From the NCBI GenBank assembly GCA_022616275.1, contig JAKEFB010000174.1, positions 1 through 58,690 on the forward strand: DNA of 58,690 bases, read 5' to 3'. A program made the translations under genes and the position numbers. Origin of the DNA: Chloroflexota bacterium. GTDB lineage: Bacteria > Chloroflexota > Anaerolineae > Promineifilales > Promineifilaceae. Position 1 is the stretch's first letter; the number at the start of each line of letters is the position of its first letter. Below, one piece after another: positions 12,778 to 52,818 of this stretch. Below the pieces are notes generated by a model that was not told the DNA's origin, searched no databases, and saw only the letters and a program-made list of their open reading frames with translations.

Positions 12778-15576
12778 GTGAAACAGACCGCTGCTGAAGT
12801 CTCATGCCGGATGACGGGGTTTTTGCTCCAAGAGCTGCGGAGGAAGGGCCTGCCACCAGAGAGATTGGTGGTGGGGGTTTCTTACTCTGTTGAACATTTA
12901 CTGAATAAGCACGAACGAATCAGTTGGGATAGCTATTGTATCTTTATGGCCAACGCGGCCAGGGTATGGAGCGCCGACGAGCTGGTCGCTATTGGACGGG
13001 GCCTGGTCAATTCTCCCTGGACACGTCCTTTCACGCTAATAGCCCGGCTGCTTTTTTCTGTAATGGGCATTTATGAGTGGGTGACACGCCTGGATTCAGA
13101 CGGTCCTGGCCAGCTTATTTCCTGCCTGCGTGGTTCTATACGATACCTGGGGCCCTACCAGTTGGAAATTGACCTGATCCTGGAGCCTGGCTACCCTGTC
13201 TGCCGGCCGCTCAACGCGTTGATGAAAGGGGGGATGTTAGCCGTGCCGAACCTTTTGGGCCTGCCAGATGCGTCTGTTCAAATGGCGGAATTGCCCAATG
13301 GGGCGCGCTATACCGCATTAGTTCCCCCGGATAACCGGTTGTTGACTCGTCTGCGGCAACTCGTGACCCGGCCGCTGGTCTGGCAGAAGGCCAGGCACGA
13401 ATTGGTGGAGGCTTACCAATTGCTTCACCTGCGCTACATCCAGCTCCAGCATGAGATCGATGAGCGCAAACGGGCGGAATTGCTCCAGTCGGCCGTTTAT
13501 CGTATCGCTACCATTGCTAATGACCCTGACATTGGCCTGGAGGAGTTGTACCGCTCGATTCACGAGGTTGTTGGCGAGTTGATGTATGCTGAGAACTTTT
13601 TTATTGCTTTCTACGATCCCCAGGCCGATTTGCTCGACTTTCCTTATTTCATTGACGAGTACGACACCTACAAGGGACCGTTCAAACCGGAAAAAAGCCT
13701 GACGTATTACGTTATTCAAACAGGGGAAGCGCTGCTCATTAACGAAGAGCAACACGATGAATTAATCCGGCAGGGTAAAGTCGCCTTATTGGGGGCGCCT
13801 TCACTGATTTGGCTGAGCGTCCCTTTGAAATCTAAGGCGGGTACGTTTGGCGCGATGGTGGTCCAGCACTATACAGACATTAACGCTTATGGCCAACAGG
13901 AGAAACAGTTATTGTCTTTTGTCTCCGGGCAGGTGGCGGCGGCTATTGAGCGTAAACGGTCCGAGGACGCGCTGCGGGAGAGCGAGCAGCGATTCCGGCA
14001 ACTGGCGGAGAATATTGACGAAGTATTCTGGCTTTTATCGCCAGACGGGACAAGGGTCTATTACGTAAACCCAGCCTACACTCGAGTAACGGGCCGGAGT
14101 TGTGAAAGCCTTTATACAAACCCTGCTTCCTGGCTGAAGGCGCTGCATGTTGAAGACCGCCGGCAAATAGTAAAGGAGTTCCGGGAGCGCGGGCCGGGCA
14201 TTCGTAGGGATTCACAAGAGCGGGAAGTGCGGGTGGTCCGGCCGGATGGCTCGGTGCGTTGGGTGTGGATACGATCTCACCCTGTCCAGGATGACGATGG
14301 AGGGGTGCTTTTTCAGGTGGGTGTGGCGGTGGACGTGACCGAGCGCCAGGCGGCCGAGATGGCCTTGCGGGAGCGGGAAGAGGCGCTGCGCCTGGCCCAA
14401 AAGCGGGAAAGCCTGGGGGTGCTGGCGGGAGGCGTGGCCCACGATTTTAATAACCTGCTGGTGGCTATGTTGGGACAGACATCGCTGGCCCTGGCCAAAA
14501 TGCCACCGGATAGTCCAGGGTGGCCACACGTGGAAAAAGCGGTCATGGCGGCGCAGCGAGCAGCCGACCTGACGCGGCAGATGTTGGCGTATTCTGGCCG
14601 AGGCCATTTTGAGTTCCGGCCGTTGGACCTGAATGCTCTCGTCCAGGACAACTTGCCTCTCCTGGAGGCGACGATTCCCAAGCACGTTCGCCTCTGTTCC
14701 GCACTGACAGCCCCTCTGCCTGACATTGAGGCAGACGCCGGCCAGATGCAGCAGGTAGTAATGAATCTGATCCTGAATGCGGCCGAGGCTATTGGCGAGC
14801 AGCCGGGGACGGTGACAGTGGCGACAAAGAGCTGGACGGTCACGGAGGCGGCCAGCCACTTCTGGCGTTATACAGGTGATCCCTTGCGTGTTGGCCCTTA
14901 CGTGTTGTTGGAAGTGGAGGACGACGGGAGTGGTATGGACGCTCAGACGCTGGCCCGTATTTTCGATCCCTTTTTCACGACCAAGTTTACCGGCCGGGGG
15001 TTAGGGTTGGCGGCGGTGTTGGGTATTGTGCGAGGCCACCAAGGAGGGTTGCGGGTAACCAGTACGCCGGGCAAGGGAACGGTGTTTCAGTTGCTTTTTC
15101 CGCTGGCCCTGGCGACGGAAGAACCGGCTGCGCTGCGTGAAGGAGCAGATGGAGCGGCGGAAGCGCCTGTGAAAATACCGGCGGAAGTTGCGGCCGGGGG
15201 ACAGGATAGGGTGGTCCTAGTCATTGACGACGAGCAGCCGGTGCGCGAGGCGGTGACGGATATCCTGGAATTGGAAGAAGTCCCAGTTATCTGCGCGGCC
15301 GACGGCGCGCAGGGGGTGGCGTTATACCGCCAGTACGCAGCCAGGATCAGCCTGGTGCTGCTGGACCTATCCATGCCCGGCCTGAGTGGAGAGGAGACGC
15401 TGCACCAATTGCAGCAGATTAACCCAGAGGTACGGGTTGTGCTTTCGTCGGGTTACAGCCAGGCCGAGATTAGCCCGCGTTTTGACGGGGAGGGATTGGC
15501 CGGTTTTATTCAAAAACCGTATGACGTGGCAACACTGGTCAGTGAGGTCAGGCGGGCGTTATACTTGACAAGGTAA
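12778..15576 (+). CDS. Hybrid histidine kinase with unassigned N-terminal domain (GAF-PAS-HK-REC)
   Basis: 932 residues from a GTG with AAGAGG in front. No clear transmembrane helix. Residues 1-220 form a helical/mixed module I do not recognise with certainty; 'LPPERLVVGVSYSVEHLLNKHERISWDSYCIFM' faintly recalls AraC-type N-terminal ligand domains. Then a coiled linker, GAF (about 245-395), PAS (about 400-530), HisKA with H555 (GVAHDFNNLL), HATPase ('LILNAAEAI', 'DDGSGM', 'GRGLGLAAVLGIV') and a C-terminal REC with D863 (LVLLDLSMPGLSG). Phosphate can pass internally from H555 to D863. The last codons and the TAA lie in a repeat shared with 55009-55024. Confidence 0.92.
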   Translation: MKQTAAEVSCRMTGFLLQELRRKGLPPERLVVGVSYSVEHLLNKHERISWDSYCIFMANAARVWSADELVAIGRGLVNSPWTRPFTLIARLLFSVMGIYEWVTRLDSDGPGQLISCLRGSIRYLGPYQLEIDLILEPGYPVCRPLNALMKGGMLAVPNLLGLPDASVQMAELPNGARYTALVPPDNRLLTRLRQLVTRPLVWQKARHELVEAYQLLHLRYIQLQHEIDERKRAELLQSAVYRIATIANDPDIGLEELYRSIHEVVGELMYAENFFIAFYDPQADLLDFPYFIDEYDTYKGPFKPEKSLTYYVIQTGEALLINEEQHDELIRQGKVALLGAPSLIWLSVPLKSKAGTFGAMVVQHYTDINAYGQQEKQLLSFVSGQVAAAIERKRSEDALRESEQRFRQLAENIDEVFWLLSPDGTRVYYVNPAYTRVTGRSCESLYTNPASWLKALHVEDRRQIVKEFRERGPGIRRDSQEREVRVVRPDGSVRWVWIRSHPVQDDDGGVLFQVGVAVDVTERQAAEMALREREEALRLAQKRESLGVLAGGVAHDFNNLLVAMLGQTSLALAKMPPDSPGWPHVEKAVMAAQRAADLTRQMLAYSGRGHFEFRPLDLNALVQDNLPLLEATIPKHVRLCSALTAPLPDIEADAGQMQQVVMNLILNAAEAIGEQPGTVTVATKSWTVTEAASHFWRYTGDPLRVGPYVLLEVEDDGSGMDAQTLARIFDPFFTTKFTGRGLGLAAVLGIVRGHQGGLRVTSTPGKGTVFQLLFPLALATEEPAALREGADGAAEAPVKIPAEVAAGGQDRVVLVIDDEQPVREAVTDILELEEVPVICAADGAQGVALYRQYAARISLVLLDLSMPGLSGEETLHQLQQINPEVRVVLSSGYSQAEISPRFDGEGLAGFIQKPYDVATLVSEVRRALYLTR
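15559..15574 (+). repeat. TTATACTTGACAAGGT repeat, copy inside CDS end
   Basis: A 16-bp match to 55009-55024. Here it encodes the last residues (L-Y-L-T-R) of the hybrid kinase and provides its TAA. A related GGTGACAAGGTGAGGG lies at 15604-15619, showing the GGTGACAA octamer family also seen at 46874-46903. Confidence 0.7.
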
Positions 15577-15659
15577 CGGCAACCGGTGGTTGCTTGGCGA
15601 TAGGGTGACAAGGTGAGGGAAATGTCACTTTACGACCGTGCTGGGTACAAACAGGTCGG

Positions 15660-15684
15660 AGAGACGTTGCACTGCAACGTCTCT
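15660..15684. repeat. REP-like palindrome AGAGACGTTGCA-C-TGCAACGTCTCT
   Basis: Two perfect 12-base arms around one base, between the convergent hybrid kinase and fasciclin genes. The minus-strand stop TAG of the fasciclin gene (15683-15685) overlaps its right arm. As RNA it would form a hairpin on either strand and could work as a bidirectional terminator, although no clear T-run follows. Confidence 0.85.
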
Positions 15685-16285
15685 ACCGGCCCCAGCCGGG
15701 GGGTAGCAGGACGGCGTCAATGACGTGGATGACGCCATTAGTGGCTCTCATGTTCCCGTCAACGATCCGGGCCTGGTCGTTGAAAATAATTGAGCCGTTC
15801 CGCACGCCGACGGTCAGGTTCTGGTCCAATAAGGTATTAACTGTACTCAGGGCCAACAATGATTCGGTGTCCCTGGCCCCCTCCAGGATATGATAGACGA
15901 GGACGTTGGTCAGCAGGCCGTCGGGTTCGCCCATCATTCGCTCCCAGACGCCCTCAGGTAAGGCGGTAAAGGCTTCGTCGGTGGGGGCCAGGATGGTGAA
16001 AGGACCAGAGATGGCGAAGGTTTCGACCAGGCCGGAAGTTTCCATGGCGGTGGCCCACATTGAAAGCCGACTATCGCTGGCAGCCAGGTCTACCAAAGAG
16101 TTGGGCGGTATGGAGGCCAGGGCGGGGTTTTCCGGCGGCGCGACGGTCCGCTCTTGTTCTGCGGCCGGGTTCGGAGAGGGTGTGATGGCGGATGGGCGGC
16201 GGGTGGATGTGGCCCCGGCCGGACCGCAGGCGGCCAGCCAGACGCAGAAAGTTAATAGCAAACTTAGCGTGGCAGCGTGTTTCAT
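15683..16285 (-). CDS. Fasciclin-domain lipoprotein
   Basis: 200 residues. Signal peptide with lipobox LAAC (C20), a Thr/Ser/Pro-rich spacer to about residue 58, then one FAS1 domain: 'SLVDLAASDSRLSMWATAMETSGLVETFAISGPFTILAPTDEAF' (H1 motif) and a C-terminal 'NMRATNGVIHVIDAVLLP' (H2 motif). FAS1 lipoproteins sit on the cell surface and usually mediate adhesion or matrix interaction. AAGGAG precedes the ATG. The stop codon is contributed by a palindromic repeat. Divergent from the small acidic protein at 16396. Confidence 0.93.
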   Translation of the reverse strand: MKHAATLSLLLTFCVWLAACGPAGATSTRRPSAITPSPNPAAEQERTVAPPENPALASIPPNSLVDLAASDSRLSMWATAMETSGLVETFAISGPFTILAPTDEAFTALPEGVWERMMGEPDGLLTNVLVYHILEGARDTESLLALSTVNTLLDQNLTVGVRNGSIIFNDQARIVDGNMRATNGVIHVIDAVLLPPGWGR

Positions 16286-17513: not shown

Positions 17514-17544
17514 TGGAAACTCCTCCACGATTAGATATTAGGGA

Positions 17545-18977: not shown

Positions 18978-19334
18978 ATGGCGAAGGTTTTAGGTTTGTT
19001 TGGTTCGCAGGCTGACGCGACAGACGCGCTGGACGCGCTGACGGCGGCTAATTTCGGCGAGGTGCGTACGAAAGTGTTTGGTTGGGGGGCATCTGACGCA
19101 TCGCCGGTGGCAGTAGCTGCGCTACCGGTGAATCAAGCGACGATGCCGCCTGGTATCATTGTCTATGAGGCGTATAGGGAGTTAGATTTTGATCTGGACG
19201 AGGAGGAGGAAGCATACGTGACCCGCCAGATTAACGATGGCGCGATTATTGTGGTCGTGGAAACAGACGACGAACACACAGCGCCGGTACAGGAATTGCT
19301 AGAGGCGCACGACGCGCGCACATTGGTTGAGTAG
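18978..19334 (+). CDS. Small general-stress-type protein (GSP 17M-like)
   Basis: 118 residues, ribosome site GAAGGAG before the ATG. The opening 'KVLGLFGSQADATDALDALTAANF' resembles the N-terminus of general stress protein 17M/YflT-type domains, which form a ferredoxin-like fold. A conserved-looking central stretch 'LDEEEEAYVTRQINDGAIIVVVETDD' follows. It is acidic and has no membrane segment. Function is unknown; stress-linked in the recalled family. The stop codon lies in the left arm of a 28-bp palindrome shared with the convergent patatin gene. Confidence 0.65.
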   Translation: MAKVLGLFGSQADATDALDALTAANFGEVRTKVFGWGASDASPVAVAALPVNQATMPPGIIVYEAYRELDFDLDEEEEAYVTRQINDGAIIVVVETDDEHTAPVQELLEAHDARTLVE

Positions 19335-19358
19335 GGGCACGAGGCCTCGTGCCCCTAC
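19331..19358. repeat. Perfect 28-bp palindrome holding two stop codons
   Basis: Arms GTAGGGGCACGAGG and CCTCGTGCCCCTAC with no loop base between them. The plus-strand gene stops with the TAG at 19332-19334. The minus-strand patatin gene stops with the TAG complementary to 19355-19357. The element therefore occupies the whole convergent gap and terminates both reading frames. Confidence 0.9.
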
Positions 19359-20422: not shown

Positions 20423-20535
20423 AAAGTGCTGGCCGCGATGGGTGAATTATAGGGGGGAGTTGGGAAAGCTGCTAACATTTTTCTAATATCTTGCCAACGC
20501 CTCTCTGACACTTGGTTCATATGCTATTGTTCAGC

Positions 20536-20576
20536 GTTCAGGTGCCAGGCACTTTGGAAGTGCCTGGCACCTGAAC
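20536..20576 (+). repeat. Perfect 19-bp inverted repeat in the clpB leader
   Basis: GTTCAGGTGCCAGGCACTT, a 3-base loop (TGG), then its exact complement. The word recurs partially (TTGCCAGGCACTT) at 32127-32139, so it is a dispersed REP-like element. It ends about 10 bases before the clpB ribosome site, where a hairpin this stable could affect translation or act as an attenuator. No T-run follows on the plus strand. Confidence 0.8.
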
Positions 20577-20598
20577 GGCATCACTTGAAGAGGGGAAA

Positions 20599-23202: not shown

Positions 23203-23221
23203 GGTAACCTCTGGGGAAATG

Positions 23222-23257
23222 AAAAGAGGGTAGCGTTACAACAGCTACCCTCTTTTT
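23222..23257. terminator. Bidirectional intrinsic terminator
   Basis: A 13-bp stem (AAAAGAGGGTAGC with GCTACCCTCTTTT) and 9-base loop, followed by T5 on the plus strand and by a matching A-run for the minus strand. It separates the convergent clpB and kinase genes. Confidence 0.9.
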
Positions 23258-23259
23258 AC

Positions 23260-25515
23260 TTAGCCAATGAGCCACTCCGGCCGGTCGGCCGGTTCGGATT
23301 GGCGTTTTTCCTCTTCAGCGCCGGGGGGGCAGACGGGGAGGATGACGTGGAAACGGCTGCCAGGCAGGCGGGTCTCGTCCTCACCCTCGGATTCGACCCA
23401 GATGCGGCCGCCGTGGGCCTCGATGACGCCCTTGGCGATGGGCAGGCCCAGGCCCGGGCCGGCCCCTTTGAACTTGGTTGAGCCGGTGGAATGGAGCTGG
23501 GGGTTGCCAACGCGGAAGAATTTCTCAAAGATTAAGTCGTGATATTGGGGGTCAATGCCAACGCCACTGTCGGCGACGACGATTTCCAGGTATTCCTGTT
23601 TATCTTCGGCGGTAATAAATTCGGCCGAAACGGTGATGGCGCCGCCGTCGGGGGTGTATTTAATGCCGTTGCTGATGAGGTTATGAAAGGCCTGAACCAG
23701 GCGCTTGAAATCGGCCATGATGGGGGGCATTTCGCGAACCCCTTCCAGCCGGAGGGTCAGACGCCGTTCGCGCATGGCCGGGGCCACCGGTTCCACCGCC
23801 AGGCGCAAGACGGTGTCCAGCTTGGTTTGGACGAAGGTCAATTTCATGCCGTTGACGTCGAGCTGGCTGGCGTCGAGCATGGCCGAAATGAGACGTTCAA
23901 GTTGGAGGGTGGCCCGGTTGATGTGGCCGACGATTTCGTTGGTCTGCTCGCGGGTGAGGGCATCTTCGTCGTTCATGGCGTGGAGGATGTCGGCGTAGCC
24001 CTTGACCTGGGTCAGCGGCGTGCGCAATTCGTGGGAGGCAATAGTAATGAAGTCGGACTTGACCTGGTCCATAATCTCCAGACGGGTGTTTTGCTGGCGC
24101 AGGTCGGCGTTGAGCAGGCGGATGCGCTCATTCTGAGAACCCAGCTCGCTGTAGAGGCGGGCGTTCTGTAGGGCGACGACCGTCTGGTCGGCCAGTACCT
24201 GGACCAGCTCCAGCTCGTTGGGCCGGTAGGTGAGGCCGGAACCTTTCGGCCCCAAGGCAATCAGGCCGGTCAGCTCGGCGTCGGTGCTGATGGGTACGTA
24301 AACATCCATGGCCAGCTCAGTCAGCCAGGCTCTTTCTTCGGCCGCCAGGGCCTGGAAGCGGGGGCTGAAGTCGAGGTCGTACTGGAGCAGCGGCTGGCGT
24401 TGGGTGGCCAACGTTTGGACAAAGGGGTGGTCTTTGCCGAAGGCGACTTTGTAGGTGGGAATGCGGCCCATGGCCGGGATGGGTTCCAGTTCGTAGCCTT
24501 TCTCGGTGGTGGAGATAAGCATTAACGCGCCGCGGTTGGTCTCCAGGAGTTCGCTGATGGTGCCGACGATGACCAGGGACAGTTGTTCGACGTCCAGGGT
24601 CCGGGCAATGGCCTGGCTGTAGCTGCGGAGGGCCTTGCTGGTCTCAAATTCCTCGCCCAGCAGGTAGCGGTAGAGGATGCGCTCGATGAAGCGATAGAAC
24701 GGCCGGTAGACGAGGAAGCCGATGGCAATGACCAGGACGGTGATGAACGCGCTCTGGCTGAGGGGCAGCCGGCTGGTGAAGCGCTGGATAAGGAAGAGGA
24801 CGAGGGTGGCCAGCCCGGCGGCGATGAGGACGATGATGGCGAAGACGGCTACGCGGCGCAGGCGGGTCTGGACGTCGAAGATGCGGTGGGAGGAGACGGC
24901 GTAGGTCATGCCCAGGACGCCAATGAAGCGGATAAACTGCCCACTGATGGCCAGCCCGGGGTTGGTGTAGAAGAGTAGGGCCTCGCCGACAAAGGTCACT
25001 AACAAGGTGACGGCCCAGTAGAGAAGGCGGTTGGCGTGCCAGGGCAGGGGGGCGTTGCGGTAACCGCGCCAGGCGATGAGGAGCATAGTCCCGCTGAAGA
25101 TGAGCCAGAGGGCCAGGGAGACCAGGCCGCCCAGGGTGGGCTGGAGAAGGATGTTGGACGGCTGGGCAAAGAAGAGCGTTGGTAAGAACAGGTCGAGGAG
25201 GATGGCGGCCAGGACGGCCGGGCCGGTGAAGGACAGCCAAAGGCGTTTGCCGGGGATGTCTACGTAGTAGAAGGTGATGGCGCCCAGCAGGAAGGTGCCG
25301 GCGAGGAGGGCTTTGACGGGCAGGTTAGGAACGACGCGAACGATGGGAAAGGGCAGGAGCAGGACCTGCCAGATGAGGGAGACGAGGAGAAAACCAAGGA
25401 ACCAGCGCGCCTGCCGCTCCTGCCAGCCCAGGCGAATGAGCAGCACGACGAGCAGAATTGCATAGCCAGCAGCCATGATGATTGGAATTAAGGCGTTGAC
25501 TTGTGCTAGACCCAT
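23260..25515 (-). CDS. Multi-TM sensor histidine kinase with GAF domain
   Basis: 751 residues. About eight hydrophobic segments in residues 1-285 make a 7TM-type membrane sensor ('IPIIMAAGYAILLVVLLI', 'WFLGFLLVSLIWQVLLL', 'FAIIVLIAAGLATLVLFLI' and others). A GAF domain follows (about 305-450), then a coiled linker 'LNADLRQQNTRLEIMDQVKSDF', HisKA with H495 (ASHELRTPLTQVKGY), and HATPase with 'NLISNGIKYTPDGG', 'DSGVGI' and 'GAGPGLGLPIAKGVIEAHGG'. The G2 box reads GAGPGLGL, slightly altered from G-x-G-LGL. No receiver domain is adjacent, so this is an orphan kinase. Confidence 0.94.
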   Translation of the reverse strand: MGLAQVNALIPIIMAAGYAILLVVLLIRLGWQERQARWFLGFLLVSLIWQVLLLPFPIVRVVPNLPVKALLAGTFLLGAITFYYVDIPGKRLWLSFTGPAVLAAILLDLFLPTLFFAQPSNILLQPTLGGLVSLALWLIFSGTMLLIAWRGYRNAPLPWHANRLLYWAVTLLVTFVGEALLFYTNPGLAISGQFIRFIGVLGMTYAVSSHRIFDVQTRLRRVAVFAIIVLIAAGLATLVLFLIQRFTSRLPLSQSAFITVLVIAIGFLVYRPFYRFIERILYRYLLGEEFETSKALRSYSQAIARTLDVEQLSLVIVGTISELLETNRGALMLISTTEKGYELEPIPAMGRIPTYKVAFGKDHPFVQTLATQRQPLLQYDLDFSPRFQALAAEERAWLTELAMDVYVPISTDAELTGLIALGPKGSGLTYRPNELELVQVLADQTVVALQNARLYSELGSQNERIRLLNADLRQQNTRLEIMDQVKSDFITIASHELRTPLTQVKGYADILHAMNDEDALTREQTNEIVGHINRATLQLERLISAMLDASQLDVNGMKLTFVQTKLDTVLRLAVEPVAPAMRERRLTLRLEGVREMPPIMADFKRLVQAFHNLISNGIKYTPDGGAITVSAEFITAEDKQEYLEIVVADSGVGIDPQYHDLIFEKFFRVGNPQLHSTGSTKFKGAGPGLGLPIAKGVIEAHGGRIWVESEGEDETRLPGSRFHVILPVCPPGAEEEKRQSEPADRPEWLIG

Positions 25516-40351: not shown

Positions 40352-40374
40352 GGGTGTGGGGGTGTAGGGGTGTA
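40335..40374 (+). repeat. Octamer tandem repeat GGGGTGTA, five units
   Basis: Units GGGGTGTA, GGAGTGTA, GGGGTGTG, GGGGTGTA, GGGGTGTA. The array supplies the end and stop of the P450 gene and forms runs of four to five G that could fold as a G-quadruplex. The same family is at 52771-52818 and 58620-58637. Confidence 0.85.
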
Positions 40375-40407
40375 GGTTCGGTTGTGATTGTTCGGGCTGG
40401 AAGGTTG

Positions 40408-41969: not shown

Positions 41970-42001
41970 GCTGCGCCCCCACCACCTGGTGGGGGCGCAG
42001 C
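41970..42001 (-). terminator. GC-rich hairpin at the end of the ABC permease gene
   Basis: A 14-bp stem (GCTGCGCCCCCACC with its complement) and 4-base loop begin three bases after the permease stop. No strong T-run follows, so termination or mRNA 3'-end protection are both possible. Lies in a 192-base convergent gap. Confidence 0.6.
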
Positions 42002-42003
42002 GT

Positions 42004-43089
42004 CTACTCCCAGCGGAAGAAGCGGACGGCCAGGACCGCACAGACGAGGAGCCAGGCGGCCAGGACGAGGGCGTCGAGGCCGAGGCCGTAGACGGGGGGC
42101 GCACCAACCATGATCTGGCGGAGGGCGTCGGCCAGGTAGGTCAGGGGGATGGCGTTGACGACCGGCCGGATCCAGGCGGGCATGACCTCGACCGGGAAGA
42201 AGAGGCCGGAGAGGAACATCATCGGGAAGTTGAGAAGGGAGGTGATGCCGGTGACGCTTTCCTGGGTCTTGGCCAGGCCGGAGATCATGTAGCCCATGGC
42301 GACGAACATGAGCGCGCCAAGGAAGGCGAAGCCGGCCAGGAGGAGCAGGTTGCCGACTATGGTCACGTCGAAAAGGAGGATGCCAACGACAAGGATGAGA
42401 ATCGTTTGAATGGCGCCGATGGTCAGGCGCATGAGGACCTGGGAGGCCAGCAGCGTGGTACGTGGTAGGGGGGTGGCACCAATGCGGCGCAAGACCTGCT
42501 GCTCGCGCAATTGGACCAGGGCTGGGGCCGTGCCGAAAAGGCCCAACTGCATGAGGGCCATACCCAGGATGCCGGGGATGAAGAAGTCAATGGTTCGCAA
42601 TCGGTCGGAGGTGACCGGGATGGGAGCGATGGAAAGCAGGGTGGGGCTGTTGCTGCGCTGGCGGTCGAAGCCGTCTACGACTTTTTCGGTGATGGTCAAC
42701 ACGACCTGGGCGGTGACGGTATTGGTGGGATCGTAAATGACTTCGACCTCGGCCGGCCGGCGGGCGGCCAGGTCGGCCGAGAGGGTGGCGGGAATGACAA
42801 CCACCAGCCGGTAGTCGCCCTCTTCGAGCCGGGCGACCAGTTCTTCGCGGCGGCCGGTGGTGACTTCAAAAGCTTCAATGGATTGAAAGACCTCGGCCAG
42901 GGCCTGACCGGCCGGGCCTTCGTCTTCTATGGCCAGGCCGACGGGGTAGGAAGGGTCGTCGCCACCGCTGAAGACAATGCCGAAGATGAAGATGAAGAGG
43001 ATAGGAAAGGCCAGAGTCCAGAAAAGGGCCATGCGGTCGCGCATGAATTCTTTGACGCTGGCGATGTAGAGGTGGGTTAGGGCGGACAT
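42004..43089 (-). CDS. ABC-2 type transporter permease
   Basis: 361 residues from the ATG at 43089 (AGAGG in front). ABC-2 topology: TM1 (about 22-42, 'ALFWTLAFPILFIFIFGIVF'), a ~130-residue outer loop, then five membrane segments including 'FFIPGILGMALMQLGLFG', 'IGAIQTILILVVGILLF', 'LAGFAFLGALMFVAMGYMI' and 'SLLNFPMMFLSGLFFPVEVMP', the family signature. Exports a drug, lipid or polysaccharide. Downstream partner of the ATPase at 43170 (80-bp gap), giving a two-gene exporter. Confidence 0.94.
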   Translation of the reverse strand: MSALTHLYIASVKEFMRDRMALFWTLAFPILFIFIFGIVFSGGDDPSYPVGLAIEDEGPAGQALAEVFQSIEAFEVTTGRREELVARLEEGDYRLVVVIPATLSADLAARRPAEVEVIYDPTNTVTAQVVLTITEKVVDGFDRQRSNSPTLLSIAPIPVTSDRLRTIDFFIPGILGMALMQLGLFGTAPALVQLREQQVLRRIGATPLPRTTLLASQVLMRLTIGAIQTILILVVGILLFDVTIVGNLLLLAGFAFLGALMFVAMGYMISGLAKTQESVTGITSLLNFPMMFLSGLFFPVEVMPAWIRPVVNAIPLTYLADALRQIMVGAPPVYGLGLDALVLAAWLLVCAVLAVRFFRWE

Positions 43090-44672: not shown

Positions 44673-45829
44673 CGTTTGAATTTGCCACGGCGACGCGGAT
44701 TCTTTTTGGGGCGGGGCGGCTGGGGGAGGTGGGGCCGCTGGCGGTCGGGTTGGGCCGGCGGGCGCTGGTGGTGACCGGCCGGTCGGCTGAGCGGGCAGGG
44801 CCGCTGCTGGAGCAGTTGGCGGCGGAGGGAGTGGACGGCGTAACCTTCGCAGTGATCAGCGAACCGACGGTAGGCGTAGTCCGGGAGGGAGTGCGGCTGG
44901 CCAGGGAGAATGGGTGTGAGGTGGTGATCGGCCTGGGGGGTGGAAGTGTGCTGGACACGAGCAAGGCGGTGGCGGCGCTGCTGACGAATGAGGGGGACGT
45001 GCTGGAGTACCTGGAGGTGATCGGCCGGGGCCGGCCGTTGGTTCAGGCGCCGGTCCCGGTGGTGGCCATCCCGACGACGGCCGGCACGGGGTCGGAGGTG
45101 ACGCGGAACGCGGTGCTGGCTTCGCCGGAGCACCAGGTGAAGGTGAGCCTGCGCAGCCCGCTGATGCTGCCGCGCCTGGCAGTGGTGGACCCGGAGCTGG
45201 CTTATTCGCTGCCGCCGGGAGTGACGGCCAGCACGGGGCTGGATGCGCTGACGCAGGTGATGGAGCCGTACGTTTCGGTGAAGGCCAACCCGCTAACGGA
45301 TGGATTTTGCCGGGAAGGGTTGCGGCGGGCCGGCCGGTCGTTGCAGCGGGCCTACGAGAATGGCCAGGACGCGGCGGCGCGGGAGGATATGGCCCTGGCC
45401 AGCCTGATGGGGGGGCTGGCGCTGGCCAACGCGGCGTTGGGGGCGGTGCATGGTTTGGCCGGGCCGATTGGGGGGATATTTCCGGCGCGGCATGGGATCA
45501 TTTGCGCTGCGTTGTTGCCGCACGTAATGGCGGCCAACGTGCGCGCCCTGCAGGAGCGCTCGCCCGGCTCGCCGGCGTTGGCCCGCTATGGCGAGGTGGC
45601 TCGCCTGCTGACCGGCCGGGCGACGGCCGAGGCGGCCGACGGGGTGCGGTGGGTGGAGGCGTTGTGCCGGGCACTGGCGATTCCGCCGCTGTCGGCGTTT
45701 GGGCTGAGGGTGGAGGCGTTCCCGGCCGTGGTGGCCCGGGCGCAGAAGGCGAGTAGTATGAAGGGGAATCCGATTGGGTTGACGGAGGAGGAGTTGACAG
45801 TGGTTTTGGAGCGGGCGGTGGGGGTTTGA
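44669..45829 (+). CDS. Iron-containing alcohol dehydrogenase family (maleylacetate-reductase-like)
   Basis: 386 residues from the ATG at 44669. Nucleotide-binding '[13 protein letters not shown]' (88-100) and '[17 protein letters not shown]' are typical. Metal ligands: D192 is present in '[14 protein letters not shown]', but the usual His four residues later is Q196; H261 (AVHGLAG) and H275 (ARHGI) are present. The DALTQ variant occurs in part of the family, so activity is likely but the metal site is three-ligand plus Gln. It would reduce or oxidise an alcohol/aldehyde with NAD(P). Coupled to the ABM gene. The stop falls at the edge of an ACGCAAAGG repeat. Confidence 0.92.
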
Positions 45830-46860
45830 CGCAAAGGCGCAAAGACCCAAAGAATAAAAAGATAGGAGGCTCAAGGGGGATCACTGGTGTTGTGGCTTAT
45901 GCGACTGGGGTGGTAGGGTGGTTTGTTTTATGGTTGCTGGTTGGGGATGGGTGGTGGTGGATGGCTTTGTTGAACCGGGGAGGGGTGCCTTACCTGTTTG
46001 TGCCGGCGCCGCTGGCGCTGGGGCTGGCGGTGCGAAGCCGGCAGAAGAAGGTGGTGGTCCTGGCCCTGGCACCGCTGCTGATTTTTGCCCGGTTGTACGG
46101 CGCTTATTTTGTGCCCCGGCCGGCCCGGCCGGCCGATCCACCGGATTTGCGGGTGATGAGTTACAACGTCTTGTTTGCTAATAACGACGTCGAAGCAGTG
46201 GTCCAGATCGTGGAAAGATACCGGCCGGACCTGTTGGCGTTGCAGGAGGTGCGGCCGAGAATGATGTCCGAACTGTCCGAACGGTTAGCAGATAGTTATC
46301 CGTATGCCATGGCAGGTGAGTACCAGCGTTACCAGGAGCGTTACGGGACCACGGCGGCGTTTAGCCGTTACCCACTGCTGGCTAGGCAGGTGTTGGATTT
46401 AGGCGCGGAGCGCCAGGCTATCGTGTTGCGGGTGATAGCTGGCGAACATGAGGTAGTGTTCATCGCGGCCCATTTGCTGGCGTACAACATGCAATTTGTT
46501 CCGCTTGGCGAGTGGCCCCAAGCCGCGAACCAGCGAGTTCAGGATCAGAATGAGCAAGCACAGCGGATTCTCGCCGAGGGCCAACGGGAACCGGCCGACG
46601 TTTTTATCCTGGCCTGTGACTGCAACAGCCAGGAAACGGCCAGCTCATACCTTATTCTGGCCGAGTACCTGACGAACACGGCCAGGAGCGCCGGCTGGCG
46701 GTGGAGCCAGGCTCCACCGGCCGGGGCCGGCCGGGATCACAATCTGCTGCACATTGATTACATCTTTTATCGTGGGCCGGTAACGGCAACAGGGGTATAT
46801 ACGGTGGATAATAAAGGCGGTTCGGACCACCGGGCGGTGGTGGCGGATTTTGAATATTAG
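45826..46860 (+). CDS. Endonuclease/exonuclease/phosphatase-family membrane protein
   Basis: Up to 344 residues. The N-terminus has two to three hydrophobic segments (about 20-80, e.g. 'VVGWFVLWLLVGDGWWWMALL' split by a loop), then an EEP domain: 'RVMSYNVLFANN', 'DLLALQEV', 'AACDCNS'-type metal motif as 'LACDCNSQE', 'IDYIF' and 'GSDHRAVVADF'. The catalytic Glu, Asp, Asn and His are present. It may cleave a phospholipid, phosphate ester or nucleic acid on one face of the membrane. The frame opens at a TTG overlapping the ADH stop, but its first ~12 residues are repeat sequence; a GTG at 45892 is an alternative start. Confidence 0.85.
   Translation: MTQRRKDPKNKKIGGSRGITGVVAYATGVVGWFVLWLLVGDGWWWMALLNRGGVPYLFVPAPLALGLAVRSRQKKVVVLALAPLLIFARLYGAYFVPRPARPADPPDLRVMSYNVLFANNDVEAVVQIVERYRPDLLALQEVRPRMMSELSERLADSYPYAMAGEYQRYQERYGTTAAFSRYPLLARQVLDLGAERQAIVLRVIAGEHEVVFIAAHLLAYNMQFVPLGEWPQAANQRVQDQNEQAQRILAEGQREPADVFILACDCNSQETASSYLILAEYLTNTARSAGWRWSQAPPAGAGRDHNLLHIDYIFYRGPVTATGVYTVDNKGGSDHRAVVADFEY
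45829..45852 (+). repeat. ACGCAAAGGCGCAAAGACCC repeat
   Basis: Repeat of GCAAAG words of the type often seen between bacterial genes. It begins at the stop codon of the alcohol dehydrogenase and, if the TTG start is used, encodes the basic N-terminus of the EEP protein. Confidence 0.6.
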
Positions 46861-46873: not shown

Positions 46874-46963
46874 GGTGACAAGGTGACAAGGTGACAAGGT
46901 GAGGGGGAGCAGGGGGCGAGTGGGCGAGTTTGCAAGTTTGCAAGTTTGCAAGTTTGCGAGTGG
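46874..46963 (+). repeat. Two octamer tandem arrays, GGTGACAA and GCAAGTTT
   Basis: Three GGTGACAA units (46874-46897, then a partial), then three GCAAGTTT units with a degenerate fourth (46932-46963). Further GCAGGTTTGCAAGTATGCAGG follows to about 47020. They fill the 228-base gap between the EEP and PhoX-like genes. Confidence 0.85.
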
Positions 46964-47088: not shown

Positions 47089-50000
47089 GTGCGGATGTCT
47101 GGTCGGTTCCTGGTGGTGTGCGGTCTGATTTTGCTTTTTGCCGCGCTGGTCTCTGACTATGGGGGCACAGGGCATAGCGCCAGCGCCAGGCCGGGGGCCG
47201 GCGACCTGGGGGGAAGTGAGTTGGCCGGGCCAACTCCGCTGACAGACGATGGGCCTTACGTGAAGCCGGCGATGCCGGGGGTGACGGTGGAACCAATCCT
47301 GACAGTGGCGGAGGCCGTGCCGCAGACGAGTGAACCGGGCCAGACGTACCGGCTGGTGGGCAAGACGGATGGCCTGGGCGCGTACGCGGCCGGCGGCCAG
47401 GTGGGGCTGTTTCTCAACCACGAAATAGCGGGCGACGACGCCACCGAGCCGCTGGTCAACCGCCCTTTTGTCAACGGCGCTTTTATCTCCCACTATTTGC
47501 TGACACCCGGTAGCCCGGCCGTGCTGTCGGGCGACCTGGCTTTTGGGGCTGTGCTTACACGGGTGGGCAACGGCTGGCGGGACGACACGGCCGAGTGGCT
47601 GGCCGGCGATAAACGGTTTGAGCGCTTCTGTTCCGGCTACCTGGCCGGGCCGGCCGAGGGATTCGGCGAGTGGATTTATCTCACCGGTGAGGAGATCGGC
47701 TTCGGCGGTTTTAATGACCTGGGAGGTGCAGCGGTGGCAGTGGCCGGGGGGGTGGCTTACGTGCTGCCGGAAATGGGCCATTTCTCGAAGGAGAACGTGG
47801 TCATTCTGCCGGGCACGGGGAGCAAAACGGTGGCCTTTGCGCTGGAGGATGGGCCCAGCGACCTGAATAACCAGCTTTTTATGTACGTGGGCACGAAGAA
47901 CCCGACCGGGGCGACGCCGGTGGAACGGGCCGGGCTGGTGGGGGGCAGCCTGTACTTTTTCCGCTCGACAGTGACCGGCTGGACGAATGAGTACGATTAC
48001 CACAAAGGAGACAGCCTGCTTGGCGGGGAGTGGGTCGCTGTGGACTCTGTGTTGCTGCCGGGAGAGACGGTGGCTACGATGGATGCCCAGACGCTGAACG
48101 GCCGGGTGGCGGCGGCCGGAGCGTTTGCTTTTATCCGCATTGAAGACGGGGAGGCCGACGTGAGTTCGCCGGGTGACTTTTATTTTGTAACTACCGGCAG
48201 TGGTTATACGCTGGGCAGCCAGATCGTGAACAGGCTAGGGCGGCTGTACCAGCTTGTAGTAGACGTGGACGACCCGGCCGGCGGCGCGCCGACGCTGGAC
48301 ATCTTGCTGGAGGGAGACGCCGGCGACCCGATCGTCAATCCAGACAACGTGGCCATCAACGGCCGGGGCCAGATGTTGATCCAGGAGGACGTTGGCAGCA
48401 GCCAACAGGGAGCTTACCTGGAAGCACTCGGCCGGGACACCTCTATCTGGCTGTATGATCTGCCGGGGGATGACTGGGGCGGCAGCGGCTGGCTGATGCG
48501 GGTGGCCGAGATTGACCAGACGGCCGTGCCGCCCGGCTACCGGGGTATCGCGGGCGCCTGGGAGAGCAGCGGCGTTATTGACGTGGCGGAGATATATGGC
48601 CCGGGCACGTGGCTGCTGGACGTTCAGGCGTTTACAATCACCAGCCTGGGGGCCTCGCAACTGCAAGGCTCGCCGGCCGACCTTCACGTGTCGGGCGGCG
48701 GACAACTGCTCCTGCTGGATACCGGCCAGGTGGGCAAGGGGCCATACCTGAAGCCAATTTCGGCCAGCGCAACGGTTATGCCGCTGCTGACGGTGGGGGA
48801 CGTGAGGCCGCGGACGGGCAACGCCGGCCAGGGGTTTCGACTGGTGGGGCTGCCGGACGGCCTGGGTGTTTACCAGGATGGCGGCCAGGTTCGCCTGCTG
48901 GCCAATCACGAGTTGGGAGCGAACACAGTGTCCGCGCCGCTGGTCAATAGCTCTTTCCTGGTGGGCGCTTTTGTTTCCGAGTATCTGCTGGAGCCTGGGG
49001 TGGTGGCGAGTAGTGGCGACTTGGCGTTTGACCAGGTCTTTGTCGTAACGAGCGGCAGCATCCAGGATGTTTCGGCCGAGTGGCTGGCCGGACTGAAGCG
49101 GTTTGACCGGCTGTGTTCGGGGTATATGGCCGGGCCGGCCGATGGGTTGGAGGAGTGGGTTTATTTAACCGGGGAAGAGAGCGAGAGCGACGACAGCTTT
49201 AACGGCCTGGGCGGTGAGGCGGTGGCCGTGGCCGGCGGGGTGGCTTATTTGCTACCCGAAATCGGCCACTTTGCCAAGGAGAACGTGGTCGTCTTACCGG
49301 GGACGGGGAACAGGACGGTGGTGCTGGCGCTGGAGGACGCGCCGGTGGGGCTGAACAGCCAGCTTTTTATGTACGTGGGCAGCAAGAACCCGGCTGGGGC
49401 GACGCCGGTGGAACGGGCCGGGCTGGTGGGTGGGACGCTGTACTTTTTTCGCTCGACGACGGCCGGGGAGACGGACGAAGACAGCTTTCACAAAGGGGAT
49501 GGCCCGGTGAGCGGCGAGTGGGTGGCCGTGGATTCGGTCTTGCTGCCGGGAGAGACGGTAGCGACCGTGAACGTCTTTACGCTCAATATGCGGGTGAGTG
49601 ACGGCGGCGCTTTTGCCTTTGTGCGGATTGAGGACGGGGAAGCGGACCGGAATTTGCCAGGCGTTTTTTATTTTGCCACCACGGGCAGCGCCGACAGTAA
49701 CGGGGCGGGCGACAGTATCAATAACCTCGGCCGCCTTTACCGGCTGGCGGTCAATGCGGACGATCCGGCGGCCAGCCCGGCCACGCTGGAAATTTTGCTG
49801 GAAGGGGACGCCGGCGATCCGATTGTCAACCCGGATAATGTGGCCGTGAACGACCAGGGGCAGATGTTGATCCAGGAGAACCCGAATATTGACCACCAGG
49901 GGGCGTACCTGGAAGCGCTGGGGCGGGATAGCTCGGTCTGGTTGTACGACCTGCCGGGGGACGGGCTGGGGGAGGACGACACCCTGTTACGGATTGCTGA

Positions 50001-50265
50001 GATAGACCAATCGGCCGTGCCGGCCGAACTCCGGGGAAACCTGGGGAGTTGGGAGAGCAGCGGGGTGATAGACGCTTCGGCCGTGTGGGGGCCGGGGAGG
50101 TGGCTGCTGACGGTGCAGGCGCACTCGATTGACAGCGTGGAGGCTTCGCAGTTGCAGGGTTCGGCGCAAAACCTGTTGCTGGCCCAAGGGGGACAACTGT
50201 TACTGCTGAATACAAGCAATTTGCGGCCGGGCCGCTTTTTCCTGCCGTGGTTAGGACGGGAGTAG
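47089..50265 (+). CDS. Secreted protein with two tandem PhoX-like (DUF839) domains
   Basis: 1058 residues from GTG 47089 (ATG 47095 possible). A signal anchor (about 4-22) precedes two ~500-residue copies, roughly 45-545 and 550-1045. Each has the PhoX-type pattern: 'GLFLNHE/RLLANHE', 'FERFCSGYLAGP/FDRLCSGYMAGP', 'WIYLTGEE', 'NPDNVA', 'QGAYLEALGRD', 'WESSGVID'. PhoX enzymes are calcium/iron alkaline phosphatases with a beta-propeller, and these motifs supply its acidic metal ligands. Parts are nearly identical at DNA level (47875-47965 against 49360-49450), so the duplication is fairly recent. Expected outside the cell. I cannot tell whether both copies are active or whether it is a phosphatase at all. 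Confidence 0.8.
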   Translation: MRMSGRFLVVCGLILLFAALVSDYGGTGHSASARPGAGDLGGSELAGPTPLTDDGPYVKPAMPGVTVEPILTVAEAVPQTSEPGQTYRLVGKTDGLGAYAAGGQVGLFLNHEIAGDDATEPLVNRPFVNGAFISHYLLTPGSPAVLSGDLAFGAVLTRVGNGWRDDTAEWLAGDKRFERFCSGYLAGPAEGFGEWIYLTGEEIGFGGFNDLGGAAVAVAGGVAYVLPEMGHFSKENVVILPGTGSKTVAFALEDGPSDLNNQLFMYVGTKNPTGATPVERAGLVGGSLYFFRSTVTGWTNEYDYHKGDSLLGGEWVAVDSVLLPGETVATMDAQTLNGRVAAAGAFAFIRIEDGEADVSSPGDFYFVTTGSGYTLGSQIVNRLGRLYQLVVDVDDPAGGAPTLDILLEGDAGDPIVNPDNVAINGRGQMLIQEDVGSSQQGAYLEALGRDTSIWLYDLPGDDWGGSGWLMRVAEIDQTAVPPGYRGIAGAWESSGVIDVAEIYGPGTWLLDVQAFTITSLGASQLQGSPADLHVSGGGQLLLLDTGQVGKGPYLKPISASATVMPLLTVGDVRPRTGNAGQGFRLVGLPDGLGVYQDGGQVRLLANHELGANTVSAPLVNSSFLVGAFVSEYLLEPGVVASSGDLAFDQVFVVTSGSIQDVSAEWLAGLKRFDRLCSGYMAGPADGLEEWVYLTGEESESDDSFNGLGGEAVAVAGGVAYLLPEIGHFAKENVVVLPGTGNRTVVLALEDAPVGLNSQLFMYVGSKNPAGATPVERAGLVGGTLYFFRSTTAGETDEDSFHKGDGPVSGEWVAVDSVLLPGETVATVNVFTLNMRVSDGGAFAFVRIEDGEADRNLPGVFYFATTGSADSNGAGDSINNLGRLYRLAVNADDPAASPATLEILLEGDAGDPIVNPDNVAVNDQGQMLIQENPNIDHQGAYLEALGRDSSVWLYDLPGDGLGEDDTLLRIAEIDQSAVPAELRGNLGSWESSGVIDASAVWGPGRWLLTVQAHSIDSVEASQLQGSAQNLLLAQGGQLLLLNTSNLRPGRFFLPWLGRE

Positions 50266-50498
50266 GTCCAGGTCTTTTTTTGCGGGGATTAGGGGATCGG
50301 GGAATTTTTCTTTAAGCAGGTGAGTGGAGGATTTGAGGCTTTGTAGGATAGCTGGTTGCATCTGACCTAAAGTTGGATGATAATGAGTAACTAACCCAGG
50401 TAATAGGAATTTCAGTGGCGGGCCGATCCCCAATGTAGCGTTAGTCTTGTGTTGGGATTGAACGGGCCATAAACAGGATAAAGGGGTAAGGTTTTCCG

Positions 50499-52778
50499 AT
50501 GTCCCGCCAGTCCTCATTTAGTTTACGGATACGCCTGCTGCTCATCGTTTTGCTGGCGATGTTGCCGGTTTTAGGGCTATTGCTGTACAGCAACCAGGAG
50601 CAGCGCCGTTTCGCGATTAGTCTGGCCTCGGAGCAGACGCTGAAGGTAGCCAGGTTGGTTTCCGCCAGCCAGGTGGCCCTTATTGAACAGACGCACCAGT
50701 TTCTGTCTACGTTGGGGCAACTGCCTCAGATCCGGTTGGGGATGGAGCCGTGCAGCGCTTTCCTGCAATCACTGCAAAAAGAATATCCTTATTATGCGGT
50801 CATCAACGTGAGCCGGCCGGCCGACGGAGAGGTAATTTGCAGTACGCTGCCTTTGCCGGACAACGTCGCCGGCCAGGGTTTTTTTCAACGGACGCTGGCG
50901 ACAGGAAGCTTTACGGTTGGCGACTATACCCTGGGTGGAGCAGCCGGCCGGCCCTTTCTGCCTCTGAGTTATCCGGTATTTACCGAGGAGGGGCTGGAAA
51001 TGGTGTTGACGGCCGGCGTAGACTTGAGCTGGCTGAACCGGCTGGCAGCTTCGGCCAGCCCGGCCAATAGCGTGATCCTGGTGGTTGACCGGCAGGGAAC
51101 GGTGCTGGCCTACTATCCGGAGTCGAGCACCTGGACCGGCCGGAACGTGGCCGGCGCGCCGGTGGTGCAGTTGATGCTGGGGCCGGAGCGCGAGGGAGCG
51201 GCAATTATCGCGGGCCTACAGGACAGCGAACGCCTTTTCGCCTACACACCCCTGGTGGAGGGCGACGACCCGAGCAGCGCCGTGCTGGCTGTTGGCCTGC
51301 CCCTGGAGGAAGCGTACGCGGAGGCAAATCGCCTCCTGTGGACCAACCTGGCGATCCTGGGTGTAGTCACCACGGTGGCCCTGGCCGCGGCCTGGGTGGT
51401 GGGCAACGAGTTTATTGTCCAGCCCGTAAACCGGCTGATTGCCGTCACCAGGAGGTTGGCGGCAGGTGACCTTCAGGCCCGAACGGATATCGTCGGCAGT
51501 AGCGAAGTTGGCCAGTTGGCCCGGGCGTTTGACGAGATGGCCAACTCCCTGCAACGGCAAATCAACCAGCGGATTGAGGCGGAAAGCGAAAGCCGGCGCT
51601 ACGCGGCCCGGACTTTGATGTTGATCCAGGTTGCCGATCAGTTGAATGCCCGGCTGGACTTGCCGCTGGTTCTGCGGATGCTTTGCGAGCTGGCGGCCCG
51701 GGCCTTTAACGTCACCGGCAGCCTGGTGTTGCTTTATGATGAGGGGGAGGACCACTTCTACTACGCGGCCGGTTATGGGCTGCCGGCCCACGCTCTTTCC
51801 AAAGTACAGCCGGCCCCGGGGGATAGTTACCGCCAATTTATCGAAACATACGATTTACCAATCGTTGCATCAGATACTCGAAAATTGACTCCTCTGGTTA
51901 GTAGTGAACTATGCCAGGAGCACGACATTCGGACAACCGTCACGGCCAGGATCGCCCACCACCAACAGATCTTGGGTGTGCTGGTCATTTTTACCGTTGG
52001 CGAGAGCCGGGGTTTTACAGAGGAGGAGGTGGGGTTGTTAGGAGGTATCGCCGGCCAGGCGGCCCTGGCGATTAATAATGCCCGGCTGTTTGACCAGCTT
52101 CATGCCAGCCGCGAACAGTTGCGGCAACTGGCCCAGCAGTTAGTCAACGTTCAGGAGAAGGAACGGCGGCACGTGGCCCGCGAACTGCACGATCAGGCTG
52201 GCCAGGTGTTGGTGGCGCTGAAGATTACGATGCAAGGCCTTGAGGCCAGCGTGCCGGAGGAAATGACGGAACTCCAGCAATCTTTCCAGGAGGCCCTGGG
52301 GTTGGTGGATATGGTGATGGACGACATCCGTTCCCTAACCCGTGACCTCCGGCCGCTGGTGGTGGAGATGAGGGATATTAATGCGACGCTGGAGGGGATG
52401 TGCCGGGAGTTTTCGCAGCACATTCAACTGCCGATTCATTACTCTGGCCAACATCTACCAGAACTGGCCGACTCGCTGTCCTTGACGCTTTACCGCTTTT
52501 TGCAAGAATCGCTGACCAATGCGGCCAAGCATGCCCAGGCTTCGCACATCTGGGTGACAATGAAGAGTGAAGATGAGGAGGTCTCAATAGCGGTGGAGGA
52601 TGACGGTGTAGGCTTTGAAACGGCCAATCGCTGGTCCACAGGGATTGGACTGGTGGGAATGCAGGAGCGGATTGAGATGATGGGGGGGGTGTTGGTGATT
52701 GACTCACAGCCCGGCCGGGGTACGTCGCTGGTGGCAACGTTGCCTTACCAGGAGGCGGATGGAAATGTGGGGGTGTAG
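50499..52778 (+). CDS. dCache sensor histidine kinase, NarL type
   Basis: 759 residues. TM1 (about 10-30), a ~240-residue dCache ligand domain ('CSAFLQSLQKEYPYYAVINVSRPADGEVICS', 'GFFQRTLATGSFTVGDYTLG', 'GRPFLPLSYPVF'), TM2 (about 283-305), HAMP (305-360), GAF (about 375-530), HisKA_3 with H564 (ARELHDQAGQVLVALK), and HATPase with 'ESLTNAAKHAQASHI', 'DDGVGF' and 'GLVGMQERIEMMGG'. It should sense a small external molecule such as an amino acid or organic acid. There is no adjacent regulator; the LuxR-type protein at 8887 is the right class. The stop is supplied by the octamer repeat. Confidence 0.95.
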   Translation: MSRQSSFSLRIRLLLIVLLAMLPVLGLLLYSNQEQRRFAISLASEQTLKVARLVSASQVALIEQTHQFLSTLGQLPQIRLGMEPCSAFLQSLQKEYPYYAVINVSRPADGEVICSTLPLPDNVAGQGFFQRTLATGSFTVGDYTLGGAAGRPFLPLSYPVFTEEGLEMVLTAGVDLSWLNRLAASASPANSVILVVDRQGTVLAYYPESSTWTGRNVAGAPVVQLMLGPEREGAAIIAGLQDSERLFAYTPLVEGDDPSSAVLAVGLPLEEAYAEANRLLWTNLAILGVVTTVALAAAWVVGNEFIVQPVNRLIAVTRRLAAGDLQARTDIVGSSEVGQLARAFDEMANSLQRQINQRIEAESESRRYAARTLMLIQVADQLNARLDLPLVLRMLCELAARAFNVTGSLVLLYDEGEDHFYYAAGYGLPAHALSKVQPAPGDSYRQFIETYDLPIVASDTRKLTPLVSSELCQEHDIRTTVTARIAHHQQILGVLVIFTVGESRGFTEEEVGLLGGIAGQAALAINNARLFDQLHASREQLRQLAQQLVNVQEKERRHVARELHDQAGQVLVALKITMQGLEASVPEEMTELQQSFQEALGLVDMVMDDIRSLTRDLRPLVVEMRDINATLEGMCREFSQHIQLPIHYSGQHLPELADSLSLTLYRFLQESLTNAAKHAQASHIWVTMKSEDEEVSIAVEDDGVGFETANRWSTGIGLVGMQERIEMMGGVLVIDSQPGRGTSLVATLPYQEADGNVGV

Positions 52779-52818
52779 AGGTGTGGGGGTGTGGTTATGT
52801 GGTTATGTGGTTGTGTGG
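52771..52818 (+). repeat. Octamer tandem repeat GGGGTGTR to GTTATGTG, six units
   Basis: GGGGTGTA, GAGGTGTG, GGGGTGTG, GTTATGTG, GTTATGTG, GTTGTGTG. The first unit contains the stop of the upstream kinase. The word GGGGTGTGGTTATG recurs exactly at 58624-58637. Confidence 0.85.

Follow-up and report, generated by a model that had tools for sequence, protein, structure and literature searches.

Unrelated palindromes and short tandem arrays share a place at the 3′ ends of genes in a Chloroflexota genome

Two unrelated classes of repeat element, palindromes that in part resemble repetitive extragenic palindromes (REPs) and tandem arrays of 7- or 8-nucleotide (nt) units with one G-rich strand, lie at the 3′ ends of genes in a Chloroflexota bacterium of the family Promineifilaceae (assembly GCA_022616275.1, here G000). 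We analysed contig JAKEFB010000174.1 (58,690 nt, hereafter the window) together with further stretches of the same genome, and found an element (a 7/8-mer array or strong hairpin) within 10 nt of 167 of 959 stop codons, as against 23 of 969 starts, in 1.43 Mb. A sequence-only reading of the window had proposed that unrelated repeat families share placement at 3′ ends, and the genome sample supports this. We consider it fairly probable that the two classes have spread in a compact genome, survive mainly 3′ of stop codons and sometimes close the reading frame.

Repeat elements lie at stop codons and avoid starts

The window is contig C78 of an 8.53-Mb draft genome in 309 contigs, with a listed contamination of 5.5. 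Our sample of this genome comprised 1,429,032 bases including the window, 1.37 Mb having been added from further stretches. For comparison we took two samples of 400 kb, one from each of two further genera in this family (G007 and G001). Genes were called with our own codon-context script, which gave 990 genes in the G000 sample; its gene starts are uncertain, and stop positions are independent of the choice of start. The contrast between stops and starts persists in genes of at least 250 amino acids (aa), with 50 versus 5 for arrays and 66 versus 5 for hairpins.

Two null models were applied to the placement, one putting each element in any gap (any-gap) and one shuffling it within its own gap (own-gap). 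Merging gave 246 arrays in G000, of which 194 touched a gap, 46 lay within coding sequences (CDSs) and 6 elsewhere; arrays at contig ends (6 of 246) were excluded. Within 3 nt of a stop we counted 66 arrays, with 26.3 ± 4.7 expected under the any-gap and 50.8 ± 5.6 under the own-gap null, and within 3 nt of a start 9, with 27.4 and 44.0 expected. Hairpins were sought in gaps of 15–1500 nt, and palindromes entered the placement test with arms of at least 10 nt; 42 lay within 3 nt of a stop (16.2 and 36.4 ± 3.9 expected, respectively) and none within 3 nt of a start (17.0 and 20.7). Start avoidance is strong under both nulls, and the stop excess is strong under the any-gap null and modest under the own-gap null. 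Stretches forming the first 1.03 Mb had been picked by the number and length of their contigs; C47, which was among them, had a known palindrome. The last 400 kb came from contigs already known for palindromes (C47, C189, C224 and C308, one apiece) or transposases (C209 and C308). In the first 1.03 Mb taken alone the result was similar: 57 arrays lay within 10 nt of stops and 11 within 10 nt of starts, against any-gap expectations of 20.4 and 21.8. Two contigs of the same length, C20 and C39, were considered as duplicates and the idea was rejected.

Inverted repeats scoring at least 13 numbered 185 in the gaps of G000, compared with 0 in one per-gap shuffle and 0 in coding DNA of equal length; the corresponding counts were 69, 0 and 2 in G001, and 15, 0 and 1 in G007. 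In G001, 9 arrays lay within 3 nt of a stop with 3.9 expected, and palindromes numbered 5 at 3 nt (6.2 expected) and 14 at 10 nt (7.3 expected). The claim that repeats supply the stop codon holds for part of the cases: of the 69 arrays extending to a stop, 37 include it, with CDS overlaps of at most 34 nt.

Room explains tight gaps and leaves a preference in roomy ones

The sequence-only reading offered insertion targeted to, or tolerated only at, 3′ ends, which the counts below support in part. We compared 173 gaps between tandem genes holding a single element with uniform insertion into the remainder of the gap, less 11 nt for the ribosome site. Where that remainder was below 25 nt, 36 of 46 elements lay within 3 nt of the stop (31.9 expected), and at 25–50 nt the count was 9 of 31 (5.2 expected). 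Gaps with at least 50 nt left over still had 26 of their 96 elements within 3 nt of the stop, where about 3.1 were expected; 17 of these 26 overlapped the stop. Between 100 and 250 nt the figure was 17 of 38 against 1.2. In convergent gaps, an element edge lay within 3 nt of a stop in 31 of 42 cases (23.3 expected). Compactness accounts for most of the tight cases; a preference for stops remains beyond what room explains, as the gaps with at least 50 nt to spare show.

Arrays follow a strand rule and a hairpin order

Tandem Repeats Finder listed 156 rows of period 7 and 67 of period 8 in the 1.43 Mb of G000, 30 and 2 in the 0.4 Mb of G001, and 3 and 0 in the 0.4 Mb of G007; abundance of period-7 arrays varies widely across these samples of one family. 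In the first 1.03 Mb the rows were mostly non-coding (90 of 107 for period 7, 42 of 52 for period 8). Read on the G-rich strand, the units include GAGATTA/GAGATTG, GTTATTG, GTGTAGGG, GTAATTGA, GAGTTTGC and others, and GAGATTA, AAATCTA, GTTATTG and GTAATTG are among the most over-represented words.

Strand was counted for arrays with a G/C skew of at least 0.4, which applies to 141 of the 194 gap-touching arrays of G000. Among the 64 skewed arrays that overlap a stop or lie within 10 nt of it, 62 have their G-rich strand in sense (62 versus 2), including all 24 of those that lie 0–10 nt past the stop without overlap. On the 3′ side, 61 of the 141 skewed arrays have a complementary C-rich partner no more than 70 nt away; on the 5′ side none has one. 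Controls found such a partner for 1 of 141 (shuffled flanks) and 9 of 141 (flanks of other arrays). Arrays without a partner keep the sense-strand bias at stops, 30 to 2. The sense-strand rule is strict.

After merging, hairpins in which the G-rich arm comes first number 50 in G000 and 10 in G001, 60 in two genera, and none in either sample has the C-rich partner 5′ of the array. An independent inverted-repeat search classed tandem-armed hairpins as G-first, balanced or C-first in the ratio 45/3/0 in G000 and 17/3/0 in G001. The other, non-tandem hairpins of G000 gave 48/74/15, so the G-first rule belongs to the arrays. Loci retrieved by family search had their arms in the same direction, 13 to 0 (three, in L126, from the window's own genome and one, L022, within the counted G001 stretch), as did the named loci, 2 to 0, both from one element in L234. 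Of 52 stop-side edges of array hairpins in G000, 41 overlap the stop or lie within 10 nt of it; of 48 start-side edges, 4 lie within 10 nt of the start and 20 at 11–20 nt. A separate "polarity" of the arrays was considered and rejected, as the flanks show that much of it derives from the hairpin order. Selection of units for stop triplets was likewise rejected as a full explanation: 93 of 211 consensus units (44%, coding arrays' units included) carry one on the G strand, compared with 57% after shuffling. Since the units are not enriched in stop triplets, frame closure by arrays looks like a by-product.

Palindrome families and RAYT-like transposases

Palindromes fall into several families, among them AACCTCCSGGAGGTT, AGGTGACNGTCACCT, GTGCCTGGCACGGGGCA, AAACCCCGCAGGTT, GTAGAGACGTTGCA and GTAGGGGCACG. 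The first, AACCTCCSGGAGGTT, occurs at 47 places in the 1.43 Mb (94 over both strands). A GTAG tag marks the outer edge of 19 of the 137 non-tandem hairpins of the G000 sample, and nine stops come from the TAG of these tags. Copies of two GTAG-headed words begin within called CDSs in 5 of 11 and 5 of 10 cases, stop overlaps counted. In the window, palindromes at 15660–15686, 19331–19358 and 41970–42007 have the form of GTAG-tagged REPs, a 20–40-bp palindrome with GTAG at its foot.

At three of six loci with a Y1_Tnp match, open reading frames (ORFs) resembling the HuH REP-associated tyrosine transposases (RAYTs), with an NHYHF motif, stand beside one palindrome family each: in L094 (contig C308) the ORF adjoins two AACCTCCSGGAGGTT-type hairpins, and in L095 and L096 (contig C22) the ORFs adjoin five and three AGGTGACAGTCACCT hairpins. 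Judged by sequence, this layout is that of REPtrons; a GT[AG]G foot is present on 1 of these 10 hairpins (GTGG, on one strand of an L094 hairpin).

Gene ends in the window

Under strict criteria, an element lies within 12 nt of the stop in 7 of the 36 window genes and within 12 nt of the start in none. Stops and repeats were found where the sequence-only reading had placed them, with cases of unequal strength: six of the nine CDSs it named are solid (fasciclin, a 118-aa ORF, patatin, a cytochrome P450, a dCache kinase and an ABC permease) and three are weaker or of a different kind. Pfam agrees with the names given to eight of the nine proteins and matches no family to the 118-aa ORF, which had been called a stress protein. 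An Rfam scan of the window at the gathering score returned no match.

In four of the solid cases a GTAG tag at a palindrome foot provides the TAG. The fasciclin gene stops at 15683–15685 in a minus-strand palindrome, GTAGAGACGTTGCA-n-TGCAACGTCTC (15660–15686; folding z score −5.2), whose core occurs at 11 exact places across the whole genome. Between convergent genes, the palindrome GTAGGGGCACG...CGTGCCCCTAC (19331–19358; z −7.2) carries the TAG of both neighbours, that of the 118-aa ORF at 19332–19334 on the plus strand and that of patatin at 19355–19357 on the minus strand. The ABC permease was said to stop three bases before a hairpin; the site is real, and the interval is the GTAG tag itself (42004–42007, TAG at 42004–42006), 2 nt off the foot of the hairpin at 41970–42001 (whole element 41970–42007, minus strand; z −7.6).

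The other two solid stops lie within plus-strand octamer arrays. The P450 array, GGGGTGTA units with the G-rich strand sense (40335–40376), encodes the tail GVGV and contains the TAG at 40349–40351, and the array at 52765–52819 contains that of the dCache kinase at 52776–52778. The REC-kinase differs: a minus-strand 7-mer array with the C-rich strand sense (32775–32831) encodes the 23 residues after LP, so that the tail is repeat-coded as claimed, and the array lies inside the ORF, with the TAA beyond it, rather than supplying the stop. The Fe-type alcohol dehydrogenase (Fe-ADH) is a moderate case; its TGA at 45827–45829 opens a degenerate plus-strand CGCAAAGG repeat (45827–45853) and overlaps TGACGCAAAGGCGCAAAG, and CGCAAAGGCGCAAAG occurs six times in the 1.43 Mb. 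Weakest is the hybrid kinase, which does have TTATACTTGACAAGGT at its stop (15559–15574, plus strand). This 16-mer occurs twice in the 1.43 Mb, at positions 15559 and 55009 of the window, and under the criteria applied it counts neither as an array nor as a hairpin. It includes a TTGACA-like hexamer.

Two further stop-proximal hairpins were absent from the sequence-only reading. A long imperfect plus-strand hairpin with CGCGAATGA-type repeats (4338–4434; z −7.0) begins at the stop TAG at 4338–4340, occupies most of the gap and leaves 16 nt to the next called start (4451). Between convergent genes, the hairpin at 23222–23256 is separated by 3 nt from one stop (23260) and by about 20 nt from the other (23202), with z −6.8 for 23212–23266. 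Plus-strand GGTGACAA and AGTTTGCA arrays with the G-rich strand sense (46874–46961) follow a gene ending at 46860. A perfect hairpin with 20-nt arms (20535–20577; z −11.0) lies between divergent genes and not at a stop; about 21 nt separate it from the following start (20599). The ORF at 47095–50265 contains direct repeats of about 74–78% identity spaced by about 1488 nt (47444–50121), and by its sequence is an internally duplicated protein.

C-termini compared with relatives

In the five genes compared, the proteins of relatives end near the same residue; as a test of the sequence-only reading, the comparison came out mixed. Of 16 ABC permease relatives, all distant, six share the FRWE end, with TAG, TAA or TGA as the stop codon, and three have a close variant of it (one further relative gave no alignment). 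Among 11 patatin orthologues (62–73% identity), two end in VEGE, as in the window, and nine are longer by one to four residues. The ABC permease and patatin ends therefore need no repeat.

Array-coded tails measure 2 (Fe-ADH), 4 (P450) and 23 (REC-kinase) residues. Three Fe-ADH orthologues stop two residues earlier than the window protein. The REC-kinase comparison took in 16 loci including the window's own; seven relatives share the LP and end 3–10 residues after it, compared with 23 in the window, and the remaining loci have different ends. For the P450, the top 12 of the 80 loci kept were Chloroflexi/Anaerolineae records and lower ranks mostly Actinobacteria, and relatives below 44% identity were excluded from the comparison of 3′ ends. 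Nine of the 13 family orthologues (L099–L111, 56–67% identity) have their last residue no more than two positions from the W of an LPxxW motif or from the residue standing in its place. The window's GVGV tail, 4 residues past the W, is of ordinary length, because the other four run 5–8 residues past the W with no array there. In one orthologue (L109, genome G012) a GAGATAGAGAGGAGAGTGTA array that differs from the window array lies over the stop codon and seems to have been gained independently at this gene end.

Proposed explanation and alternatives

In the explanation we favour, one class would consist of REP-type palindromes of several families, some GTAG-tagged, probably spread by resident RAYTs, and the other of arrays of 7- or 8-nt units with one G-rich strand, often with a C-rich complement on the 3′ side so that the whole forms a hairpin. 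Elements would arrive or grow between genes and be lost from coding DNA and ribosome sites. Excluded from coding sequence and from about 10 nt upstream of each start, they would survive mainly between a stop and the next gene's ribosome site, and in short gaps this exclusion alone would put them at the stop. An extra preference, of unexplained origin, would account for stops in roomy gaps and for the sense orientation of the G-rich strand. An element landing on or beside an old stop would close the frame with its own triplets: a GTAG tag would contribute its TAG, and an array a stop triplet from its unit. Because 7 and 8 are not multiples of 3, three units suffice to bring each triplet into all frames. 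The protein would then end about as before or gain a few residues.

Several observations weigh against this explanation. The own-gap null leaves only a modest excess within 3 nt of stops for arrays and palindromes alike, and palindromes that overlap stops are fewer than it predicts (23 versus 32.5). The roomy-gap excess goes beyond what purging alone would produce, the array units are not enriched in stop triplets, and the 4-residue P450 tail is not unusual among its 13 orthologues. Three of the six Y1_Tnp loci are without such palindromes: L092 and L093 had no hairpin at the threshold used, and L097 had tandem-array hairpins only. G007, of the same family, has 0 palindromes within 3 nt of a stop (2.2 expected) and only four gap-touching arrays, two of them within 3 nt of a stop. 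No insertion polymorphism was seen between close relatives, the nearest genomes searched being other genera.

A wholly neutral account, in which the products of random insertion or slippage are purged from coding and start-proximal DNA of a compact genome, fits gaps with less than 50 nt to spare and the closeness of the own-gap null to the observed stop counts. We consider it improbable in the light of the 100–250-nt gaps and of the 24-to-0 strand bias of arrays just past the stop. A little less improbable is a sequence-independent, strand-polar process that lays G-rich 7/8-nt arrays in sense at stops, with the complement in many cases 3′ and in none of those found 5′. Such a process could be tied to transcription at 3′ ends, through R-loops on a G-rich non-template strand; alternatively, by analogy with telomeric addition, a 3′ end could be extended with G-rich repeats, fold back and copy itself.

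The elements might instead be regulators selected at 3′ ends for effects on RNA, such as ribosome stalling, lower expression or protection of the mRNA 3′ end, the G-rich arm acting likewise. The hairpins are strong, starts are avoided, and work cited in the RepRanger paper reports reduced translation where a REP is no more than 15 nt from a stop (PMC12306157). The neighbouring genes examined in the window, however, belong to unrelated families, elements differ between orthologues, and two single arrays that were folded lack structure (z +0.8 and +1.1) yet share the same kind of place, which leaves regulation rather unlikely. Transcription terminators, acting in both directions between convergent genes, would agree with the enrichment at stops and with G001, where 14 of 40 palindromes lie in convergent gaps against 3.9 expected; in Xanthomonas RNA-seq, transcripts start or stop more often at heptamers capable of forming G-quadruplexes than at controls (PMC4692102). 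The sequence-only reading had also suggested a termination role. TTTT follows within 10 nt, in the sense of the upstream gene, 19 of 191 hairpins and 14 of 191 control places; with no excess of T-tracts we rejected intrinsic terminators. In 46 of the 173 single-element tandem gaps, moreover, less than 25 nt remain beyond the element, an operon-like arrangement, and we regard transcription terminators as very unlikely.

Relation to known systems and significance

The placement is mostly known from other bacteria. GTAG-tagged REPs are described as intergenic palindromes with the tag beside them, of which the convergent ones mostly lie 20 bp or less from an ORF 3′ end; the TAG often serves as a stop, and Chloroflexi are among the hosts (Di Nocera et al. 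2013, PMC3733652). The window elements agree with them in the GTAG next to the palindrome, the 3′-end position and the TAG used as stop. The genome differs in having several families mostly without GTAG, plus tandem-array hairpins, in the same placement. The loci L094–L096 resemble REPtrons as reported (PMC6006769) in that HuH (HYH-type) transposase ORFs have their own palindrome family alongside; unlike REPtrons, 9 of their 10 hairpins have no plain GT[AG]G foot.

Heptamers of Xanthomonas and Nostoc, GGGAATC and GGGGA(C/T)T, are reported to be G-rich on the coding strand near and over stops, to lie on the non-coding strand upstream of starts, and to form pairs in convergent orientation in 70 and 75 cases in two Xanthomonas (PMC4692102). 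The arrays described here are likewise intergenic tandem units, some of 7 nt, with the G-rich strand coding near stops, but they include octamers and many unit sequences under one rule; neither published unit was among the most over-represented words or example units of the G000 sample. TAACTGA direct repeats of Beggiatoaceae carry stops in three frames and some overlap the stop of the upstream gene; they are reported to lie mostly upstream of starts and to face them (PMC4679880), whereas here starts are avoided. In a survey of 40 bacterial genomes, stem-loops were biased to the 50 bp after stops and included some repeat families (PMC1590033); those of low-GC firmicutes are described there as mostly terminator-like with a T-run, in contrast to the lack of T-tract excess here. 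In E. coli, REPs near stops are reported to lower translation (PMC12306157). The 3′-end bias of REPs and their donation of TAG, and heptamers hugging stops on the coding strand, are thus already in print as those accounts present them (PMC3733652, PMC4692102). New relative to the literature searched are the lineage, the mixed unit families under one strand rule, the count of the opposite order and the split between room and preference. The G-first order as a general rule was not found in that literature, in which PMC4692102 reports the convergent order for one family.

With unrelated element classes side by side in one genome, placement that room explains can be separated from placement that remains unexplained. 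The G-arm-first order and the sense-strand rule are simple to count, and any model of how heptamer repeats arise has to account for both. Annotators should be aware that in genomes of this sort repeats encode the terminal residues of some proteins.

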